From a bacterium (lineage in GTDB: Bacteria; Bacteroidota; Ignavibacteria; Kapaibacteriales; UBA2268): DNA of 64,000 bases. The stretch lies in contig JANJTB010000006.1 of assembly GCA_024711295.1 (NCBI GenBank), positions 124,001-188,000 on the forward strand, written 5' to 3'. The stretch's first letter is position 1; every line of letters begins with the position of its first letter. Under the pieces are notes generated by a model. The model did no database searches, was not told the DNA's origin, and saw only the letters and a list, made by a program, of their open reading frames with translations. The translations under genes and the position numbers were made by a program. Shown one piece after another: positions 37,520 to 52,978 of this stretch.

Positions 37520-38017
37520 ATGCCAAACAAAAAGAAGATTATTGCTTTAACAAAATTCCTGACAATTTATATTGGCATAATTATATTATATTATGTTTTT
37601 ATTAGTTTCGATAATAATCCTATACTTGAAATCTACATTAATATAACATCAAAGATAAGTGCTCTTATATTGAGCATATTTGATTCTTCCATTATTGCGG
37701 ATAAGCAACTAATATCCGGTAGTAAATTTTCTGTAATTTTATCATTTGGTTGCGAAGGGTCCGAGCCGTTAGCAATTTTCTTTGCAGGTGTGATGTCATA
37801 CCCTTCAGTTATTAAGTATAAGCTCCAAGGTTTAGTGATTGGCCTTCCTGCATTATATTTACTTAATATTATAAGGATTATACTACTTTACTTTATTGGT
37901 GTTAATTTTAATACACTGTTTGATTTTGCTCATACAACTTTATTTCCAATCATTTTTATATTAATCGCCCTTGCTTTTTGGATGCTATGGATAAACAGAA
38001 GCAATATAAAATTTTAA
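37520..38017 (+). CDS. Exosortase/archaeosortase family protein
   Basis: A 165-residue polytopic membrane protein with the catalytic triad pattern of exosortases: Cys78 in FGCEGSEPLAIFFAG, Arg119 in LLNIIRIILLYF and His138 in FDFAHTTLF. These transpeptidases cleave C-terminal sorting signals of exported proteins and attach them to an envelope carrier. The short length and motif spacing fit the Bacteroidota branch (XrtF-like) better than PEP-CTERM XrtA. No protein with a recognisable sorting tail was found in the window, so the target is unknown. It overlaps the next gene. Confidence 0.8.
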   Translation: MPNKKKIIALTKFLTIYIGIIILYYVFISFDNNPILEIYINITSKISALILSIFDSSIIADKQLISGSKFSVILSFGCEGSEPLAIFFAGVMSYPSVIKYKLQGLVIGLPALYLLNIIRIILLYFIGVNFNTLFDFAHTTLFPIIFILIALAFWMLWINRSNIKF

Positions 38018-41876: not shown

Positions 41877-42806
41877 TTATAAAATTGCACCTAATAACAA
41901 ACCAATAGAATATAGTAAACCAAACAACAAATTATGTTGTGCAGTCTTAACGTCGCCAATCATAATTTCTTCGGGAGTTGAATTCTCAGCTTTTGAAATA
42001 AATTTGAGATTATCAATGGCAGGTTTTATTGAAATAAAAACCAATAGAGTCCAGGGTGAAATGAATTGAAGTGTAACCATAATTACAACACTAACAAATG
42101 CTCCAATGATTAAGAAATAGTATTCGAATACTGATGACTTGATTCCCATTAAAGTTGCCATTGTATTAATATTGGCATCTTTGTCATGTTGAATATCTCT
42201 GATGTTGTTTGCGTTAAGGATAGCAACTGTAAGCAAACCAATAGGAATACTTATAAAAAATGTATTATAATCCAATTGGCCGGTTAAAGCTGTGAATGTG
42301 CCAAGCACCATCATCGGACCAAACATAAGGAATACAAATAAGTCACCTAAAGCATAATACTTGTAAGCAACATTAAATCCGGTATATAAAGCACCGCCCA
42401 ATAAACCAATTATACCTATGATAAATATTGGAAGACCATGATAGTATACTAATACCATACCCAGTGCGAATCCTATAGCAAACATCAAAAGACCACCTTT
42501 ATATACTGATTCCGGTTTAAGATGTCCCTCAACCAAAACACGGCTAGAGCCGTAAGTATCTATTTTATCTACTCCTTTTTTGTAATCGAAGTAGTCATTA
42601 AGCATATTTGTACCTGCATGAAACAAAACTCCTGCAAGTAAAATGAGGGGAGTAAGTTCCCAGTAAACTTTTCCTGTATATGAGCCAAGAGTCCACATTA
42701 TTCCAACTAACATTGGAACCACGGATGCCGGAAAAGAGAAAGTTCTAGCAGATTGAATCCACAAGCTTACAGAACTGCGATCTGATGTAGTAATTGAAGC
42801 TGACAT
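41877..42806 (-). CDS. menA: MenA-type 1,4-dihydroxy-2-naphthoate polyprenyltransferase
   Basis: A 309-residue UbiA-family membrane prenyltransferase that attaches an isoprenoid chain to the menaquinone ring. The first aspartate motif is NDYFDYKKGVD (70-80) and the second lies in NNIRDIQHDKDANINTMATL, both binding Mg-diphosphate. Around eight helices are visible. The NDYFDYKKG form is typical of MenA rather than UbiA or heme O synthase. No other men gene is nearby. It is probably transcribed with the DUF1800/DUF1501 genes. Confidence 0.88.
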   Translation of the reverse strand: MSASITTSDRSSVSLWIQSARTFSFPASVVPMLVGIMWTLGSYTGKVYWELTPLILLAGVLFHAGTNMLNDYFDYKKGVDKIDTYGSSRVLVEGHLKPESVYKGGLLMFAIGFALGMVLVYYHGLPIFIIGIIGLLGGALYTGFNVAYKYYALGDLFVFLMFGPMMVLGTFTALTGQLDYNTFFISIPIGLLTVAILNANNIRDIQHDKDANINTMATLMGIKSSVFEYYFLIIGAFVSVVIMVTLQFISPWTLLVFISIKPAIDNLKFISKAENSTPEEIMIGDVKTAQHNLLFGLLYSIGLLLGAIL

Positions 42807-43453: not shown

Positions 43454-43521
43454 GTAATAATTCACCATTATTAAACTGTTGGAAAAATACTTTTCTTCAA
43501 TGATAAATTCTTTGATAATAT

Positions 43522-43552
43522 TTTGTTATTTAACAAAAAAATAATATTTTAG
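43522..43552 (+). promoter_or_regulatory. Promoter with overlapping palindromic operator before marR
   Basis: The palindrome TTTGTTA-TT-TAACAAA spans 43522-43537. Its first four bases are also the -33 box: TTTG (43522-43525), 19 bases, then TATTTTAG (43545-43552), near-consensus. A regulator bound to the palindrome would block the promoter. The marR ATG lies 22 bases past the -7 box. Confidence 0.55.
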
Positions 43553-43574
43553 AGTATAAAATAATTGGTGATTT

Positions 43575-44024
43575 ATGAAAAATAAATTGAATGAATACGA
43601 AATCTTAGCAGGGTTGATCTGCGAATTAACTCGTAACTGCAATCAAAAGGAAGATTTTTTTGCAGCAAGTTTTAATTTGACACCTGCTGAAGTACGATTG
43701 CTGATGCTATTTTCATTCGAAAACACATACAGTATTAAGCATCTTCGCGAAACTCTCAACCTTACTCCCGGGCGAATAACTCATATTGTGGAGTCACTAG
43801 AAAAGAAAAAGCTTGTAGAAAGGTTTCAAGATGCTGATGACAAAAGAAATGTGTTTGTAAGATTACTTCCAAAAGCTAATATATTTATCCAAAATTTAAA
43901 AGATAATTATAGTCTATTGCACCAAAATTTGCTAAAAAATGTTAATAAAGAAGATATTGAGAAAATCTTTGAATCTTTAAAAGTTCTGATTGATACATTT
44001 AAAAAATGGACACAAGAAAAATAG
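43575..44024 (+). CDS. MarR-family transcriptional regulator
   Basis: A 149-residue winged-helix repressor: LTPAEVRLLMLFSFENTYSI, recognition helix LTPGRITHIVESLEKKKLVE and the wing motif DADDKRNVFVRLLPKA (DxxDxR form). MarR proteins bind short palindromes as dimers and respond to small molecules or oxidation. Two cysteines near the N-terminus (Cys15 and Cys22) could sense redox state or sulfur species; this is conjecture. A palindrome overlaps its promoter, and the octaheme cytochrome operon starts 34 bases downstream. Confidence 0.9.
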   Translation: MKNKLNEYEILAGLICELTRNCNQKEDFFAASFNLTPAEVRLLMLFSFENTYSIKHLRETLNLTPGRITHIVESLEKKKLVERFQDADDKRNVFVRLLPKANIFIQNLKDNYSLLHQNLLKNVNKEDIEKIFESLKVLIDTFKKWTQEK

Positions 44025-44058
44025 TTTATATTATAAAACAATTTAAGTATTTATGTAA

Positions 44059-45642
44059 ATGAAAAAAATATTTCTAATCATCGCGCTATTTGGATTAGTA
44101 ACTCTGCTGGCGATTGGTTTTCTATCTCAAAAAGACTATGAGCCTGATAACCAAATGAAACTAAAAGAGAAATATTCCAAAAAAGGCAAAAAGGCGGTTG
44201 ACCATAGTCAATTCTCAGTTTTGCAGCAGGATTTTAATAATCCTAAACAAGTTACACAAGCATGTGTTTCATGCCATAATATGACAGCTCATCAGGTAAT
44301 GAATTCTAATCATTGGAATTGGGAAAGAGAGGAGTATGTTGAAGGAAGAGGCATTGTTTATCTTGGAAAGAAAAATGCATTAAACAATTTTTGTATTGGT
44401 TCACATGGTAACGAGCAATCGTGCGCCAAATGCCATGTAGGGCTTGGTTATGATGAAAATGGGAAATTATTTGCAGATTCCTCCAACATTGATTGTATGG
44501 TTTGTCACGATAACACAGGTACTTATGTAAAAGCAACTGAAAAAGCTGGAGAACCTGTTAGCACATTAAATTTTAATGAAATAGCTTTTAGTTCCGGTAA
44601 ACCCACCCGTAGTAACTGCGGAGTATGTCATTTTTATGGTGGTGGGGGTAATAATGTAAAGCATGGGGATTTGGAAGAAGCGATGTTTGAACCCACAAAG
44701 GAAATTGATGTACACATGGGTACGGATGGGGTAAATATGCAGTGTGTTGCATGTCATAAGACCGAACAGCACAATATTGCCGGGAAACTATATTCTTTAT
44801 CATCAATGAACCGAAATAGAGCTTATTGTGAGGATTGTCATACATCTACACCTCATGCTGATGATATATTGAACGAACATAACCTGAAAGTTGCCTGCCA
44901 GACATGTCATATTCCAACTTATGCAAAAGCAAATTCTACCAAGATGTATTGGGATTGGTCAACTGCAGGAAAATTGAAAAATGGCGAGCCATATCATGAA
45001 GAGGACAGCTTAGGGAATCATACCTACTTGTCAATCAAAGGTTCATTTGAATGGGATAGAAATGTTAAGCCAGATTATGTTTGGTTTAATGGTACTGCTT
45101 CACATTATTTGAAAGGCGATATTATTAATGACACTACAAAGCCGTTGATTCTAAACAAGCTTCACGGTTCTTATGCAGATGATGAATCAAAAATTTATCC
45201 TACTAAAATACATGTTGCAAAACAACCCTACGACCCAATTAATAAGATGTTGATTCAGCCAAAACTTTTCTCTGAAAAAAAAGGAGAAGGAGCATTTTGG
45301 AAGGATTTTGATTGGTATAAAGCTGCTGAAGTAGGTATGAAAGAGTCAGGACTTCCTTTCAGCGGTAAAATATCATTCCTGGAGACTGAAATGTATTGGC
45401 CTGTTAATCACATGGTTTCTTCTAAGGAAAATGCGCTTTCATGTAATGAATGCCATACAAGAAGTGAAAATGGCAGATTAAGCAAACTAACCGACTTTTA
45501 TCTTCCGGGTAGAGACTATAATGCAGCAGTTGATACTGGTGCCATAATTATGCTAATACTATCATTTCTTGGCATAGTAACTCATTCAATTGTCAGATTT
45601 CTAAGCAAACGAAAAAATAAAGGAGAAGTGAATAATGGCTAA
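44059..45642 (+). CDS. Octaheme c-type cytochrome, tetrathionate reductase family
   Basis: A 527-residue exported cytochrome with eight CxxCH heme sites, at Cys69, 122, 146, 187, 229, 257, 280 and one near 460. The arrangement, with NSNHWNW after the first heme and NNFCIGSHGNEQSCAKCH before the second, matches the tetrathionate reductase-type octaheme cytochromes (Shewanella OTR), which reduce tetrathionate and also nitrite or hydroxylamine in vitro. An N-terminal helix (4-22) and a C-terminal helix (about 495-515) anchor it in the membrane. Overlaps the cytochrome b gene by eight bases. Physiological substrate is inferred. Confidence 0.88.
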   Translation: MKKIFLIIALFGLVTLLAIGFLSQKDYEPDNQMKLKEKYSKKGKKAVDHSQFSVLQQDFNNPKQVTQACVSCHNMTAHQVMNSNHWNWEREEYVEGRGIVYLGKKNALNNFCIGSHGNEQSCAKCHVGLGYDENGKLFADSSNIDCMVCHDNTGTYVKATEKAGEPVSTLNFNEIAFSSGKPTRSNCGVCHFYGGGGNNVKHGDLEEAMFEPTKEIDVHMGTDGVNMQCVACHKTEQHNIAGKLYSLSSMNRNRAYCEDCHTSTPHADDILNEHNLKVACQTCHIPTYAKANSTKMYWDWSTAGKLKNGEPYHEEDSLGNHTYLSIKGSFEWDRNVKPDYVWFNGTASHYLKGDIINDTTKPLILNKLHGSYADDESKIYPTKIHVAKQPYDPINKMLIQPKLFSEKKGEGAFWKDFDWYKAAEVGMKESGLPFSGKISFLETEMYWPVNHMVSSKENALSCNECHTRSENGRLSKLTDFYLPGRDYNAAVDTGAIIMLILSFLGIVTHSIVRFLSKRKNKGEVNNG

Positions 45643-46303
45643 GAAATTAGTATATATTTATCCAGGATTTGAGAGATTTTGGCACTGGATGCAAGCAATA
45701 TTAATATTCTTTCTTGCTTTTACAGGTTTCGAAATTCACGGTTCAGTTGAGTTCTTTGGATTCAGAGAAGCGGTCAGATATCATAATATAGCTGCTTATA
45801 TGTTTTTAGGACTGATCATTTTTGCAATATTTTGGCACTTGACTACAGGGCAATGGAAACAGTATATTCCTACATTCGAAAACATCAAGGGGCAGTTGAA
45901 TTATTACTTATTTGATATTTTCAAAAATGCACCACATCCTACTAAGAAAACAGTGATAAGTAAATTAAACCCACTTCAAAAAATTGTATATTTCGGACTG
46001 AAAATTCTTGTAATACCGATGAGTGTTACATCAGGACTTTTATACATGTTTTACAGATATCCGTCCAAATATGGGGTAGAAGCAATAAATATTCAATCAT
46101 TGGAGTTCATCGCAGTATTTCATACGATAGCAGCATTCCTCCTGATTAGTTTTATAATGATGCATTTATATTTAATTACTACAGGCGAAACAATAACTTC
46201 TAATCTTCAGGCTATGTTAACAGGTTATGAGGAGTTAGATGTTGCTGATGAAGAAAAAACAGAAACAAATCAAGTTCAATTAAAAGTTGAGGCGAATAAA
46301 TGA
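45635..46303 (+). CDS. Di-heme cytochrome b membrane subunit
   Basis: A 222-residue cytochrome b561-type protein with four helices. Candidate heme ligands are histidines in FERFWHWMQAIL, FAIFWHLTTGQW, FHTIAAFLLISF and IMMHLYLITTGE. It should pass electrons between the quinone pool and the octaheme cytochrome, whose gene it overlaps. A charged soluble tail (DVADEEKTETNQ) ends it. Overlaps the next gene by four bases. Confidence 0.87.
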   Translation: MAKKLVYIYPGFERFWHWMQAILIFFLAFTGFEIHGSVEFFGFREAVRYHNIAAYMFLGLIIFAIFWHLTTGQWKQYIPTFENIKGQLNYYLFDIFKNAPHPTKKTVISKLNPLQKIVYFGLKILVIPMSVTSGLLYMFYRYPSKYGVEAINIQSLEFIAVFHTIAAFLLISFIMMHLYLITTGETITSNLQAMLTGYEELDVADEEKTETNQVQLKVEANK

Positions 46304-46833
46304 ATTTAGAACATAATAATCAACCTGCTCCATATATGAATTCTTATTTAGCAGGAGCATTACTGGGCATTCTACTGATTGCGACAATTTATATTACAGG
46401 CAGAGGATTAGGTGCCAGCGGAGCAATTAAGAGTTATGCTGTAGCAACAGTAGAAACGGTTACTCCTACACACGCCGAGAATACAAAATTCTACAAGGAA
46501 TATTCAAAAGAGCACTCCGGTTCGCCACTTATGAATTGGTTAGTGTTCGAGGTAACAGGCGTATTAATTGGTGCATTTTTATCCGGATTAATTGCTAACA
46601 GATTGAATTTTAAGATGGAAATGGGACCAAATTCTACAAGTAAAATAAGAATTGCAGGTGCTTTAATTGGAGGGATTCTATGGGGAATAGGGTCTCAGCT
46701 TGGCAGAGGTTGTACCAGCGGTGCAGCTCTTAGCGGACTCGCAGTTCTATCTACAGGTGGAATACTTACTATGATGGCAATATTTGCAGGAGCATATATC
46801 TTTGCTTACTTTTTTAGAAAAATGTGGATTTAA
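46300..46833 (+). CDS. YeeE/YedE-family sulfur compound transporter, half unit
   Basis: A 177-residue membrane protein of the YeeE/YedE family (TsuA/SoxT-like), members of which import thiosulfate. The signature RGCTSGAALSGLAVLSTGG includes the conserved cysteine. It has four or five helices, half the size of a full YeeE, and carries a periplasmic loop of about 40 residues (AVATVETVTPTHAENTKFYK onward). The partner half is the next gene, 19 bases downstream, so the two may form one channel. Confidence 0.85.
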   Translation: MNLEHNNQPAPYMNSYLAGALLGILLIATIYITGRGLGASGAIKSYAVATVETVTPTHAENTKFYKEYSKEHSGSPLMNWLVFEVTGVLIGAFLSGLIANRLNFKMEMGPNSTSKIRIAGALIGGILWGIGSQLGRGCTSGAALSGLAVLSTGGILTMMAIFAGAYIFAYFFRKMWI

Positions 46834-46852
46834 ATAGGGGAGATTTTAAAAA

Positions 46853-48037
46853 ATGGGACCATTAGTACCTGATATTATTAGTACGAATCTAAATTACATA
46901 GTTGCTCTTGTTTTAGGAATATTTTTTGGAGCAATATTAGAGCAAGCAGGTTTTTCAACTTCTAAAAAGCTTGTTGGGTTATTTTATGGATATGACTTTA
47001 CTGTGCTCAGAGTTTTTTTTACTGCGGGCGTAGTAGCAATGATTGGAGTAATGGGTTTGAGTTACTTTGGGTTGCTCGATATTAATCTTGTTTATATCAA
47101 TCCTACATTTTTTTGGTCAGCAGTAGTAGGTGGTGTAATTATGGGATTAGGATTCGTTGTAGGAGGATTCTGTCCCGGTACAAGTGTATGTGCTGCAGCA
47201 ATAGGTAAAATTGATGCTATGATTTTTATTGCAGGTGCATTTATCGGTGTATTGATTTTTGGAGAGGGATATGAAATGTTCGAACCTCTATATAAAGCGA
47301 CAAATTGGGGTGCACCAAGGATTTTCGATTCTTTAGGGTTATCACAGTCAGTATTCGCATTTTTAATGACATCTGTAGCTTTATTTGCTTTCTGGATGAC
47401 ATCAATCATTGAGAATAAAGTAAATAAGGTAAGCAAACCACCAATCAGATTTACTCCATATTATGTATCTTTGGGTGTGCTAGGATTGGTAATAGCATTG
47501 TCAGCATTTGCGTTTCCTGATAGGAAGTCTGATCTACTAGAATTAAATCTTCAAAGTGAAAACATCAAAATTGATAAGATGTCGGTTGATGAATTTGCAT
47601 ACAGGATTATGGATGAATATGATAACAAATTGCAGGTGATAGATTTTAGAAAAGATAAAGAGTTTAAGAAAATGTCTTTACCAAAGTCCACTCAATTTAC
47701 CATTGATAATTTATTCGAGAAAGAACCAAACAGATTGCTGGCATTAAAACACAAAATTAATGTATTTATAGCCGAAGATGAAGCAACGGCAATAAAATAT
47801 GCGGCAATTGCAAAAGAATTGGGGTATAAAAGAATTAAAGTTCTGGATGGTGGCTTGGATAAATTTAAACAAGAGATATTAAATTATCAAATTAAAAACG
47901 TATTCAACTCAGTTGATGAAGAAAATACTAATCGATTCAGACTTAAAGCAAAAGAAATCATCCCTGTAATGATTTCTCAAAACAAAATTTCAGGTCCTGT
48001 GGTGAAGAAGCAAAAGCGAGTTGTTGGCGGTTGTTGA
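46853..48037 (+). CDS. YeeE/YedE transporter fused to a cysteine-less rhodanese domain
   Basis: A 394-residue protein. Residues 1-220 are a YeeE/YedE membrane part with the signature GGFCPGTSVCAAAIGKIDAM. Residues 245-350 look like a rhodanese domain: VIDFRKDKEFKKMSLPKSTQ at its start and RIKVLDGGLDKFKQEIL at its end. Where the catalytic Cys loop should be, the sequence is VFIAEDEATAIKY, so persulfide transfer by this loop is impossible. The C-terminus ends RVVGGC, a terminal cysteine on a flexible tail that might substitute. A GGGGAG site precedes the start; a terminator follows. Confidence 0.85.
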   Translation: MGPLVPDIISTNLNYIVALVLGIFFGAILEQAGFSTSKKLVGLFYGYDFTVLRVFFTAGVVAMIGVMGLSYFGLLDINLVYINPTFFWSAVVGGVIMGLGFVVGGFCPGTSVCAAAIGKIDAMIFIAGAFIGVLIFGEGYEMFEPLYKATNWGAPRIFDSLGLSQSVFAFLMTSVALFAFWMTSIIENKVNKVSKPPIRFTPYYVSLGVLGLVIALSAFAFPDRKSDLLELNLQSENIKIDKMSVDEFAYRIMDEYDNKLQVIDFRKDKEFKKMSLPKSTQFTIDNLFEKEPNRLLALKHKINVFIAEDEATAIKYAAIAKELGYKRIKVLDGGLDKFKQEILNYQIKNVFNSVDEENTNRFRLKAKEIIPVMISQNKISGPVVKKQKRVVGGC

Positions 48038-49619: not shown

Positions 49620-50756
49620 TTAAATTTTATGTATAAATACTCCAATTCTTGAATGCGAACCCTTGAAGTTGAATGAAGTTGACTTGAGCAAGCTTTCTTC
49701 AATTTTACCATAGAATGAATCGTATCTCCAATTGTATATTTCGCTGTATAAATTTTTCACATACTTGCCGGCATCTTCCCCGCTTACCAATACATAAGGA
49801 TATGTTTGTTCATCATTTTTGTCTGGAACATAAATATCTAAGTTATTGACTGTAAATCTTCTAGTCTCAATTCTTAAGTCAGGTGGTTTAGATTCTCCGT
49901 AATAGGTTCTTTCCACTTTGTAAAATTCGTATTTCAATTCAACAATTATTGAACCATCCTTTGATACTGTTCCATTAATAACCTCAATAGTTGAATCGGG
50001 TAAAGTCGGATACTCGGTTATCCAATCTTTAGGTGAAATTTTCTCATTCAAAAGAGTAAAATTATTACCTTTCCAAACTATGTTCCTTACACCAGCTGGA
50101 TATTCAAGATCCCATTCCATATCTTCGTCAGAGGATCCATCATCGTAATAAATGTTACTTGTTACAAATGCTCTGAAATATGTATATCTAGCGAGCGGAT
50201 TATCACTTTGTCCTGTGTCTGTGGTTGTATATCCGTCACCAATTATAATCTCGTCGTCAGCCATCAATACCGGTTCGTCCTTGAGACTTGAAGAGCTCAG
50301 ATTATTAATGTTGAAAATGATTTTTGAATTGACTTTATCAATCTCAAAATTTGCTTCCTTCCAGGTTCCGTTTGAGTAAATCATACCTTTTACTGATTGC
50401 TCAGGAGTTTTTCCTGATTCAATCTTTGAAGGGTCGTATTTCAAATAAATATTTACGGTTTTTGCAAAACTTTGGAAACCTTTGAATGAAAGCTTATAAA
50501 GGTTACTTCCCAATTTCATATTTGATAATGAAAAAGTAGGAGCAGATGACTCTTTTTTAACCTTCATCTCAATATTTTGGTTAACCGCATTGGGTGGGAA
50601 AACAATCTTGAAATCGTTTCCGGCTTCAAATACTTGCTCTTCGCTTGTAGCGATTACACTTTTTTCAATTACATAATCAGAACTGGGATTAAGCAGCTCA
50701 TCACAAGAAGTAAATAGTATTAAGATAATAATTACAGACAGAATTATCTTTGTCAT
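49620..50756 (-). CDS. Lipoprotein of a tandem paralogous family, member 1
   Basis: A 378-residue lipoprotein (LFTSC lipobox). Residues 15-182 carry the module shared with the next two genes: EEQVFEAGNDFKIVFPPNAV, SAPTFSLSNMKLGSNLYKLS and MADDEIIIGDGYTTTD are near-identical in all. The IVFPPNAV stretch recalls ZU5-like beta domains, a weak resemblance only. The C-terminal 190 residues (from about DNPLARYTYFRAFVTSNIYY) differ from those of the neighbours. Encoded last in a minus-strand run. Function unknown. Confidence 0.75.
   Translation of the reverse strand: MTKIILSVIIILILFTSCDELLNPSSDYVIEKSVIATSEEQVFEAGNDFKIVFPPNAVNQNIEMKVKKESSAPTFSLSNMKLGSNLYKLSFKGFQSFAKTVNIYLKYDPSKIESGKTPEQSVKGMIYSNGTWKEANFEIDKVNSKIIFNINNLSSSSLKDEPVLMADDEIIIGDGYTTTDTGQSDNPLARYTYFRAFVTSNIYYDDGSSDEDMEWDLEYPAGVRNIVWKGNNFTLLNEKISPKDWITEYPTLPDSTIEVINGTVSKDGSIIVELKYEFYKVERTYYGESKPPDLRIETRRFTVNNLDIYVPDKNDEQTYPYVLVSGEDAGKYVKNLYSEIYNWRYDSFYGKIEESLLKSTSFNFKGSHSRIGVFIHKI
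50209..50712 (-). repeat. Tandem paralogue module, copy 1 (504 bp)
   Basis: A 504-bp segment that aligns without any gap to 51282-51785 and 52434-52937. Between copies 1 and 2 only scattered substitutions are seen; it covers codons from just after the lipobox to the GYTTTD motif. Confidence 0.85.
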
Positions 50757-50773
50757 GACTCATTCCTTTTTGA

Positions 50774-51829
50774 TTAATAATGCATAAATTCAATCTCTAC
50801 CCATGAATTCTTTGAATAATCGGTAGATAAATATTCTTCCTCTTTTGTGCCTTGATAGTTTTTATATACTTTTTTAAACTGAATATACTTAACCATATTT
50901 TTTATGTTATTTCCACCTCCGTCTTTTCCGAATTTAAAAAACATTCCCATTCTATCATAATCGTAAGGAACATTTTCGAGATGCAGAACAGCTTCAATTG
51001 ATGTAGTATCATCCCATATTTTTGTAATATCGCAAGTAGCTTGCAAATTTAACGTTTTGTTATTGGAATTTATAGTGCCTGAAATATTACCACCCTCCAG
51101 TTCAGCTACAAACTTATTACCATCCCAGGTTAGATTATCTGTAAATGTTTCACTACCAAAATTAAAATATAGCGGAAAATGAATTGAATACCAATTACCT
51201 TCATTTAGGCCCTGATGATAACCTGAAAAATCTACACTTATAAACTTTGAAGTTTTCATTTTAGCTAAAAAATCGTCATCTTGTCCTGTGTCTGTGGTTG
51301 TATATCCGTCACCAATTATAATCTCGTCGTCAGCCATGAATACCGGTTCATCCTTGAGACTTGAAGAGCTCAGATTATTAATGTTGAATATGATTCTTGA
51401 ATTGACTTTATCAATCTCAAAATTTGCTTCTTTCCAGGTACCGTTTGAGTAAATCATACCTTTAACAGATTGTTCCGGTGTTTTGCCTGATTCAATCTTG
51501 GAAGGGTCGTATTTCAGATAAATATTTACGGTTTTAGCAAAACTTTGGAATCCTTTAAATGAAAGCTTGTAAAGGTTACTTCCCAATTTCATATTTGATA
51601 ATGAAAAAGTAGGAGCAGATGACTCTTTTTTAACCTTCAACTCAATATTTTGGTTAACTGCATTGGGTGGGAAAATAATTTTAAAATCGTTTCCGGCTTC
51701 AAATACCTGTTCTTCGCTTGTAGCGATTACACTTTTTTCAATTACATAATCAGAACTGGGATTAAGCAGCTCATCACAAGAAGTAATAATGAACATAATC
51801 GCAGATAAGAAAATTATATTTTTCATCAT
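50774..51829 (-). CDS. Lipoprotein of a tandem paralogous family, member 2
   Basis: A 351-residue lipoprotein (FIITSC lipobox) whose shared module differs at only a handful of residues from that of member 1. The C-terminal half, from about FLAKMKTSKFISVDFSGYHQ, is unrelated to the other members at sequence level and looks beta-rich (FGSETFTDNLTWDGNKFVAE). ATG 51829 is taken, since the upstream in-frame TTG (51838) would abut the preceding stop. It lies 17 bases before member 1 in the same transcript. Confidence 0.75.
   Translation of the reverse strand: MMKNIIFLSAIMFIITSCDELLNPSSDYVIEKSVIATSEEQVFEAGNDFKIIFPPNAVNQNIELKVKKESSAPTFSLSNMKLGSNLYKLSFKGFQSFAKTVNIYLKYDPSKIESGKTPEQSVKGMIYSNGTWKEANFEIDKVNSRIIFNINNLSSSSLKDEPVFMADDEIIIGDGYTTTDTGQDDDFLAKMKTSKFISVDFSGYHQGLNEGNWYSIHFPLYFNFGSETFTDNLTWDGNKFVAELEGGNISGTINSNNKTLNLQATCDITKIWDDTTSIEAVLHLENVPYDYDRMGMFFKFGKDGGGNNIKNMVKYIQFKKVYKNYQGTKEEEYLSTDYSKNSWVEIEFMHY
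51282..51785 (-). repeat. Tandem paralogue module, copy 2 (504 bp)
   Basis: Collinear with copies 1 and 3 with no insertions or deletions. It is nearly identical to copy 1 along the whole length, including the first 65 codons where copy 3 diverges. Confidence 0.85.
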
Positions 51830-51838
51830 ATACCTCAA

Positions 51839-52978
51839 CTATGGATTACTCCTCATACTAAGACTAAATTTGTTAACCTTTGGATTATCGTTAAGTTGCT
51901 TCATTGTATAAATTTCAACAGTATTACCATCCTGTGTAAATGTTAGAGTAAAACTTACCTCTTCGGCATGCTTGATCAAGTCGTGGTCGTATTTTCCTTG
52001 TTCAAAAGTTTTGTATGTATCAATATCCAAACTTGCTAACTGACCCCAGAAGTCTTTATAAAAGGATAAAATTGGTTTCAGTTTGATTTTTATATCAACG
52101 ATTTTAACCTGCTTATCTGCCATTTGCATTTCATTACTATATTGATAAATTAAATTGCTGCAAATCCAAGTTTGCTTGTTGATTTCACCGGAAATTGTCA
52201 TATTAATATTATTGTAACTATCTTTAAATGCTCTGTTCATACTGAATTTTGTACCGTTCCACTTCACGAATACTGTGTCAAGTTCGCCGGGTCCATTTTC
52301 AAAATAACTTGTAGATGATAGTGATGGGTACTCAAAATGTATTTCCTGCTGGGTACTTTGTTTTACAACGATAAAATCCCCCAACTCAACCTTGCATAAA
52401 TAGTATTTTAATTTAGCTAACTGATCATCACTTTGGCCTTCATCTGTGGTTGTATATCCGTCACCAATTATAATCTCGTCGTCAGCCATCAGTATTGGAC
52501 CATCTTTTGTATTTGAAGAGCTCAGATTATTAATGTTGAATATGATTTTTGAATTGACTTTATCAATCTCAAAATTTGCTTCTTTCCAGGTACCGTTTGA
52601 GTAAATCATACCTTTTACTGATTGCTCAGGTGTTTTTCCTGATTCAATCTTGGAAGGATCGTATTTCAAATAAATATTTACGGTTTTAGCAAAACTTTGG
52701 AAACCTTTGAATGAAAGCTTATAAAGGTTACTTCCCAATTTCATATTTGATAATGAAAAAGTAGGAGCTGATGACTCTTTCTTAACCTTCAGTTCAAAAT
52801 TGTTGTTTGTTGAATTAGGTGGGAAGACTATTCTGAAATCAGAGCCAGACTCGAAAACTTGCTCTTCAGAGCTGGGTTTAACCTCTTTTTCAATTAGATA
52901 GTCAGTGCTAGGATTTAGTATTTCATCGCATGATGATACAATAATCATCACAATTAAAATTATAGTAATTTTTTTCAT
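51839..52978 (-). CDS. Lipoprotein of a tandem paralogous family, member 3
   Basis: A 379-residue lipoprotein (IIVSSC lipobox), first of the three in transcription order. Residues 14-70 differ noticeably from the others (STDYLIEKEVKPSSEEQVFE, FPPNSTNNNFELKVKK), then the module becomes almost identical (SAPTFSLSNMKLGSNLYKLS to IIIGDGYTTTD). The C-terminal half (KYYLCKVELGDFIVVKQSTQ onward) is its own. The mosaic pattern suggests gene conversion between copies. Function unknown. Confidence 0.75.
   Translation of the reverse strand: MKKITIILIVMIIVSSCDEILNPSTDYLIEKEVKPSSEEQVFESGSDFRIVFPPNSTNNNFELKVKKESSAPTFSLSNMKLGSNLYKLSFKGFQSFAKTVNIYLKYDPSKIESGKTPEQSVKGMIYSNGTWKEANFEIDKVNSKIIFNINNLSSSNTKDGPILMADDEIIIGDGYTTTDEGQSDDQLAKLKYYLCKVELGDFIVVKQSTQQEIHFEYPSLSSTSYFENGPGELDTVFVKWNGTKFSMNRAFKDSYNNINMTISGEINKQTWICSNLIYQYSNEMQMADKQVKIVDIKIKLKPILSFYKDFWGQLASLDIDTYKTFEQGKYDHDLIKHAEEVSFTLTFTQDGNTVEIYTMKQLNDNPKVNKFSLSMRSNP
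52434..52937 (-). repeat. Tandem paralogue module, copy 3 (504 bp)
   Basis: Same length and frame as copies 1 and 2. Identity is high in the central part and drops sharply over the last 150 bases or so (the start of the coding module) and at the DNA near 52490-52510. Confidence 0.8.

Follow-up and report, generated by a model that had tools for sequence, protein, structure and literature searches.

The 64,000-nucleotide stretch analyzed here (the window; positions 124,001 to 188,000 of contig JANJTB010000006.1 from a Kapaibacteriales bacterium) contains a cluster of five plus-strand genes (43575-48037) around an octaheme cytochrome c of the octaheme tetrathionate reductase (OTR) family. We propose that the operon probably encodes a single periplasm-facing, quinone-linked sulfur oxidoreductase, in which a cysteine at the end of a flexible arm carries sulfur between a YeeE-type membrane pore and the OTR active site, most likely in the reductive direction. 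The genes, identified by analysis of open reading frames (ORFs) and profile matches, encode a MarR-type regulator with an N-terminal cysteine pair, ICELTRNC (43575..44024; PF01047, 6e-9); the OTR, with an N-terminal anchor and a C-terminal membrane tail (44059..45642; matches to TIGR04315 and 1SP3); a cytochrome b561 or PhsC-like membrane subunit (45635..46303; PF01292, 4e-26); and two YeeE-type proteins, YeeEa (46300..46833; PF04143, 7e-21) and YeeEb (46853..48037; PF04143, 6e-12, and PF00581, 1e-8). The successive intergenic distances are 34 bp, overlaps of 8 and 4 bp, and 19 bp. A previous reading of the same DNA made without database searches (the sequence-only reading) described the cytochrome and YeeE genes as overlapping or closely spaced, and the coordinates agree. 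The same interval also begins with the MarR gene, and the second YeeE protein is extended by a degenerate rhodanese domain and by a conserved arm that has GGC at its C-terminus. This terminal-Cys arm, missed earlier, is the key feature of the system.

Using YeeEb as the query, we retrieved 80 related loci (among 478 related stretches), mostly from Ignavibacteria and other Bacteroidota/Chlorobiota, with a few from Acidobacteriota, Armatimonadetes and other groups. All four genes from OTR to YeeEb are found in the same order in 78 of the 80 loci, a proportion that describes gene order and not frequency because of the choice of query; in the remaining two, a contig end or frame breaks interrupt the set. 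The four-gene arrangement is therefore not a matter of chance. All counts given here refer to loci rather than to independent events; a few loci are present twice, from different collections, and some record titles may belong to misassigned metagenome-assembled genomes.

Downstream of its transporter half, YeeEb contains a further membrane helix, a rhodanese-like domain (47570..47887, plus strand) and a flexible 18-residue arm ending in KRVVGGC (47981..48034, plus strand). In the AlphaFold2 model, the rhodanese-like domain has a local confidence score (pLDDT) of about 80-95 and is followed by a helix (residues 354-376) and a disordered end (pLDDT<50 for residues 385-394). The Foldseek matches of the domain are rhodaneses. 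The catalytic Cys of the rhodanese active loop is absent from the window protein and from 25 other aligned carriers (26 in total), and hence the domain was not assigned as an active sulfurtransferase. YeeEb is 42-71% identical to 69 relatives. The tail of 77 complete fused relatives ends in GGC in 75 cases, in VGC in one and in GGCG in one. In 66 non-redundant sequences (<80% identity), C394 and G393 are conserved in 100% and G392 in 98%; the only other widely conserved cysteines of YeeEb are C107 (100%) and C113, both in the YeeE half. As a background, none of 1,242 ORFs of at least 200 amino acids (aa) from the same loci ends in GGC, and five end in any Cys. The loop before the last helix contains 4.0 Lys and Arg residues, compared with 0.06 at the N-terminus, and the separate rhodaneses described below have a net charge of +2.5 before the anchor versus +0.2 after it. 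Based on this charge distribution around the membrane segments, the rhodanese-like domain is predicted to face the periplasm, the same side as the OTR, whose c-type hemes are attached there. The arm is similar to the flexible periplasmic C-terminal Gly-Gly-Cys arm of SoxY, but the similarity concerns the arm alone: YeeEb has no match to the SoxY domain PF13501, and its arm is placed on a rhodanese-like domain tethered to a transporter. A SoxY search of the same genome gave no match, but control genomes gave none either, and the negative therefore carries no information.

The two YeeE genes had been taken for two transporters. Both are present, but judging by their complementary profile matches they are halves of one split transporter: the PmpA-like YeeEa covers positions 177-310 of PF04143, the C-terminal half of the Sulf_transp profile, and the PmpB-like YeeEb covers positions 4-159. 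Each half has one conserved Cys, namely the pore residue Cys138 of YeeEa (133/133) and C107 of YeeEb. Such a two-gene split with one conserved Cys per half is characteristic of PmpAB/YedE1E2, for which transport of zero-valent sulfur was proposed (PMC11582611, PMC10812762). In contrast to PmpAB/YedE1E2, the halves described here are longer, one is fused to the anchored rhodanese and arm, and both belong to a respiratory operon. YeeEa aligns to the TsuA structure 6LEO; a sequence search of PDB with YeeEb gave no match.

The OTR scores 572 bits against TIGR04315 (curated cut-off, 375), contains eight CXXCH motifs and matches the Shewanella oneidensis structure 1SP3 with an E-value of 4e-126. Residues C112 and K201 align with Cys64 and Lys153 of 1SP3, which we take to be the active-site Cys and the heme Lys ligand; both are present in 90/90 sequences of this operon type, and Asp150 (1SP3 numbering) is replaced by Asn in 89/90. 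Unlike the Shewanella enzyme, this OTR is membrane-tailed and is fixed to cytochrome b561, the YeeE halves and the arm. Its C-terminal transmembrane segment (45541..45606, plus strand) contains His509 and Arg513, which are invariant in 94/94 tail OTRs and not found in short OTRs; they plausibly contact cytochrome b561. The cytochrome has seven His conserved in the alignment of relatives. Its best NCBIfam match is the PhsC-type model NF011582, with 101 bits under a cut-off of 204, and it was not assigned to the PhsC-type thiosulfate reductase cytochromes b. The previously suggested link to quinones is thus supported both by cytochrome b561 and by the tail of the OTR itself. Beside the operon, on the opposite strand, is a gene for a MenA-type prenyltransferase of menaquinone synthesis (41877-42806; TIGR00751, 119 bits, cut-off 102). 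A second OTR, short, tail-less and standing alone without cytochrome b or YeeE, is encoded on another contig of the same genome (L033, 4252-5658).

When 395 genomes of the phylum were searched with the YeeEb alignment, a second type of locus emerged, with the order PsrA-PsrB-PsrC-YeeEa-YeeEb-rhodanese; its rhodanese is a protein of its own, membrane-anchored and with EGC or GGC at the end. We counted 27 loci in which the YeeE-pair/Cys-arm module follows genes of a PsrABC-type polysulfide/thiosulfate reductase. The PsrA matches the Thermus thermophilus polysulfide/thiosulfate reductase 2VPW over the full length (E 3e-228); its best NCBIfam model is PhsA, with a score below the cut-off of that model. 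In five further loci an exported rhodanese-type sulfurtransferase precedes the module, whose tail has MGC or FQC at its end. Locus L245 has PsrABC and two GGC rhodaneses but no YeeE, which suggests that the arm goes with the enzyme. OTR-YeeE-arm and PsrABC-YeeE-arm operons occur side by side in L070 (2292-12447) and L130 (5236-17188). The exchange extends to regulation: a MerR-type regulator with nine conserved Cys precedes 13 OTR and 14 Psr operons, and these regulators are 49-74% identical between the two kinds of operon. A regular-expression count of upstream regulators gives fewer MerR genes than clustering does. In other OTR operons the regulator is a MarR with a conserved Cys near the N-terminus, or else of the ArsR type. 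A MarR relative stands immediately before OTR in about 21 other loci, and the second Cys of the N-terminal pair is nearly invariant. Clustering of locus neighbors found no positionally conserved genes beyond the core genes and these regulators. Next to PsrABC-rhodanese-arm operons, L215 (11954-13858), L217 (48-2150) and L245 (5367-7265) encode multiheme cytochromes that have 11-12 CXXCH motifs.

Next to an unchanged pore and arm, and to a regulator that is in part also unchanged, one enzyme takes the place of another. Most simply, the OTR-cytochrome b561 pair would have the role here that PsrABC has elsewhere, namely quinone-linked turnover of sulfur presented on a carrier. This swap argues for sulfur in this lineage on independent, genomic grounds, and a sulfur substrate of this OTR in these bacteria is well supported by context. 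The sequence-only reading had suggested such a substrate as well; for this OTR subtype the suggestion holds, with its strongest evidence being the Cys arm, the PsrABC swap and the shared regulator, all of which it had missed.

We infer the arm chemistry, the formation of a complex, the direction and the exact substrate as follows. Cytochrome b561, helped by the membrane tail of the OTR, would move electrons between menaquinone and the octaheme cytochrome. YeeEa and YeeEb would together build one pore through which sulfane sulfur or thiosulfate crosses the membrane. The rhodanese-like domain could be a docking scaffold from which the flexible arm presents its terminal Cys; loaded as a persulfide or thiosulfonate, this Cys would swing between the pore Cys and the Lys-ligated heme of the OTR next to Cys64. 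In a reductive run, which appears most likely, menaquinol electrons would cleave the S-S bond. We prefer this direction because PsrABC is a reductase and a menA gene is located next door. A broader proposal, which we make more tentatively and with less than even confidence, is that the split YeeE pore and the dead periplasmic rhodanese with its Cys arm constitute a portable sulfur-relay module that serves PsrABC, OTR and sulfurtransferases, and that the OTR may reduce protein-bound sulfur rather than free tetrathionate or nitrite.

The proposed sulfur relay is based on sequence and predicted structure, and several observations weigh against it. The physiological substrate of octaheme tetrathionate reductases is unsettled, as the Shewanella enzyme reduces not only tetrathionate but also nitrite and hydroxylamine in vitro (PMC4484225 for the latter two). 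Caldithrix abyssi, whose OTR may be of the tail or the short type, failed to respire sulfur, polysulfide or thiosulfate (PMC5317091). A genomic observation also weighs against the relay: in small genomes of group f29, which we take to be Chlorobiaceae, a tail OTR is found with cytochrome b and no YeeE nearby. This Chlorobia-type arrangement with cytochrome b561 implies that the OTR-cytochrome b pair can function in the absence of the arm or first served another purpose.

The association with YeeE depends on the type of OTR. Among 60 relatives, cytochrome b comes after each long OTR whose downstream region could be read, and both YeeE halves come after nearly all of these; no short OTR is followed in this way. 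OTRs that lack the membrane tail are mostly solitary. The neighborhood survey suggested with the sequence-only reading therefore gave a divided result: YeeE nearly always accompanies the tail OTRs of Ignavibacteria and Kapabacteria and nearly never the short soluble ones, a result that says nothing about OTRs as a whole. OTRs of the four-gene type form a single clade in the OTR tree (support 100/98). In two genomes, loci L176 and L177 combine a short OTR with YeeE and tails ending in GGLCS. Their OTRs group with the short ones (97/89), which indicates that the YeeE/arm module was recruited separately there. In both loci the separate cytochrome b is replaced by a nine- or eight-heme cytochrome fused to a b561 domain and adjoining the short OTR and YeeE (L176, 3756-5654; L177, 11179-12954). 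The YeeE tree requires at least two separate OTR partnerships, although the exact position of the long L176 branch is uncertain. Thus, as judged from the trees, OTRs recruited the YeeE-pair/Cys-arm module at least twice.

Among alternative explanations, the best-surviving one, which we nevertheless regard as unlikely, is the oxidative direction, with the OTR taking electrons from arm-bound sulfur, like SoxCD on SoxY, and passing them via cytochrome b561 to menaquinone. Multiheme enzymes can generally run both ways, and the terminal GGC(G) resembles the SoxY GGCGG arm. Moreover, in lucinid symbionts otr adjoins soxY-S3/soxZ, which likewise encode a carrier (PMC11237559). The lucinid gene cluster is an independent pairing of an OTR with a Cys-arm carrier and also counts in favor of the relay that we prefer. 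The swapped partner in our loci is, however, a PsrABC-type reductase, and electrons of sulfane sulfur are generally hard to deliver into menaquinone.

The model of the sequence-only reading, an ordinary thiosulfate importer merely co-expressed with a tetrathionate- or thiosulfate-active OTR, would leave the C-terminal arm unimportant and seems improbable to us. It is consistent with the YeeE homology and with known thiosulfate transport by TsuA (PMC11582611). However, the arm Cys is invariant across a large divergence, and the transporter is of the split PmpAB form: as a one-chain TsuA/YeeE thiosulfate importer it scores 46 bits against an NCBIfam cut-off of 400, and was rejected as such. No TusA/YeeD-family partner was found in the genome by a search that detected TusA in 11/14 control genomes. 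Since E. coli YeeE requires YeeD (PMC11582611, PMC11073785), plain TsuA-like import is unlikely here.

A role of the terminal Cys as redox sensor, metal ligand or disulfide-exchange site in the regulation of the transporter is much less probable. A SoxT paralogue does act in signaling (PMC11582611) and the neighboring regulators are Cys-rich, but the arm also accompanies PsrABC in L245, where YeeE is missing, and 100 of 132 carriers have no second Cys within the rhodanese domain, leaving no intramolecular disulfide or metal site inside it. Least probable of all is an OTR that is a nitrite or hydroxylamine reductase with incidental or regulatory sulfur genes: it would agree with the in vitro activities of the Shewanella enzyme, but the module is common to PsrABC and sulfurtransferases, YeeE is kept in the 78 ordered loci (with the limit on that count given above), and a full NrfA already present in the genome (578 bits) makes the role less needed. 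Locus L249 (G000:C5:25652-26932) contains a full-length NrfA gene with a small multiheme-type frame of 203 aa close by, so that nitrite ammonification has its own enzyme.

The proposed sulfur relay has parts in common with several known systems. Wolinella has a periplasmic rhodanese, Sud, as the partner of PsrABC; like that pair, the operon combines a quinone-linked periplasmic sulfur enzyme with a rhodanese-type sulfur binder. The catalyst of PsrABC is, however, a molybdoenzyme and not an octaheme cytochrome, and the Cys of Sud is in the rhodanese site and not on a terminal arm. An otr-cytochrome b561 cluster was noted earlier in Ignavibacteriae Ch128a, in an account that, in the part available, describes Otr and cytochrome b561 only, with no mention of the YeeE halves or the arm (PMC7509429). 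The Ch128a chromosome is our locus L115, with all four genes and a GGC tail, and hence has the same operon type. The searched literature, which mostly excluded subscription journals, gave no account of the arm, of the partner swap or of the MerR common to both kinds of operon; this does not prove that they are new. Should the arm carry sulfur, a covalent carrier would connect membrane sulfur transport with respiratory catalysis, a function that we know so far from soluble carriers such as SoxYZ. The terminal Cys is the one residue by which this could be tested directly.

Upstream of marR, we identified a probable MarR operator, TATTTTAGNNTATAAAA (43545..43561, plus strand), 13 nt before the gene; the motif was matched upstream of marR in 13/20 loci, the window included (shuffle p<=0.01). 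A perfect 18-bp palindrome, TTTTGTTATTTAACAAAA, at 43521-43538 was rejected as the operator, since it is not conserved in relatives. A sigma-70 promoter scan found 25 sites versus 21.3 expected, which is no signal, and a terminator scan found one versus 1.9 expected. Elsewhere in the window, positions 37520-38017 encode a small multi-helix membrane protein with an exosortase/archaeosortase-type look, followed by another membrane gene. Three tandem lipoprotein-like genes at 49620-52978 agree almost completely over their N-terminal halves (about 190 aa) and differ in their C-terminal halves; their front parts look as if homogenized by recombination.

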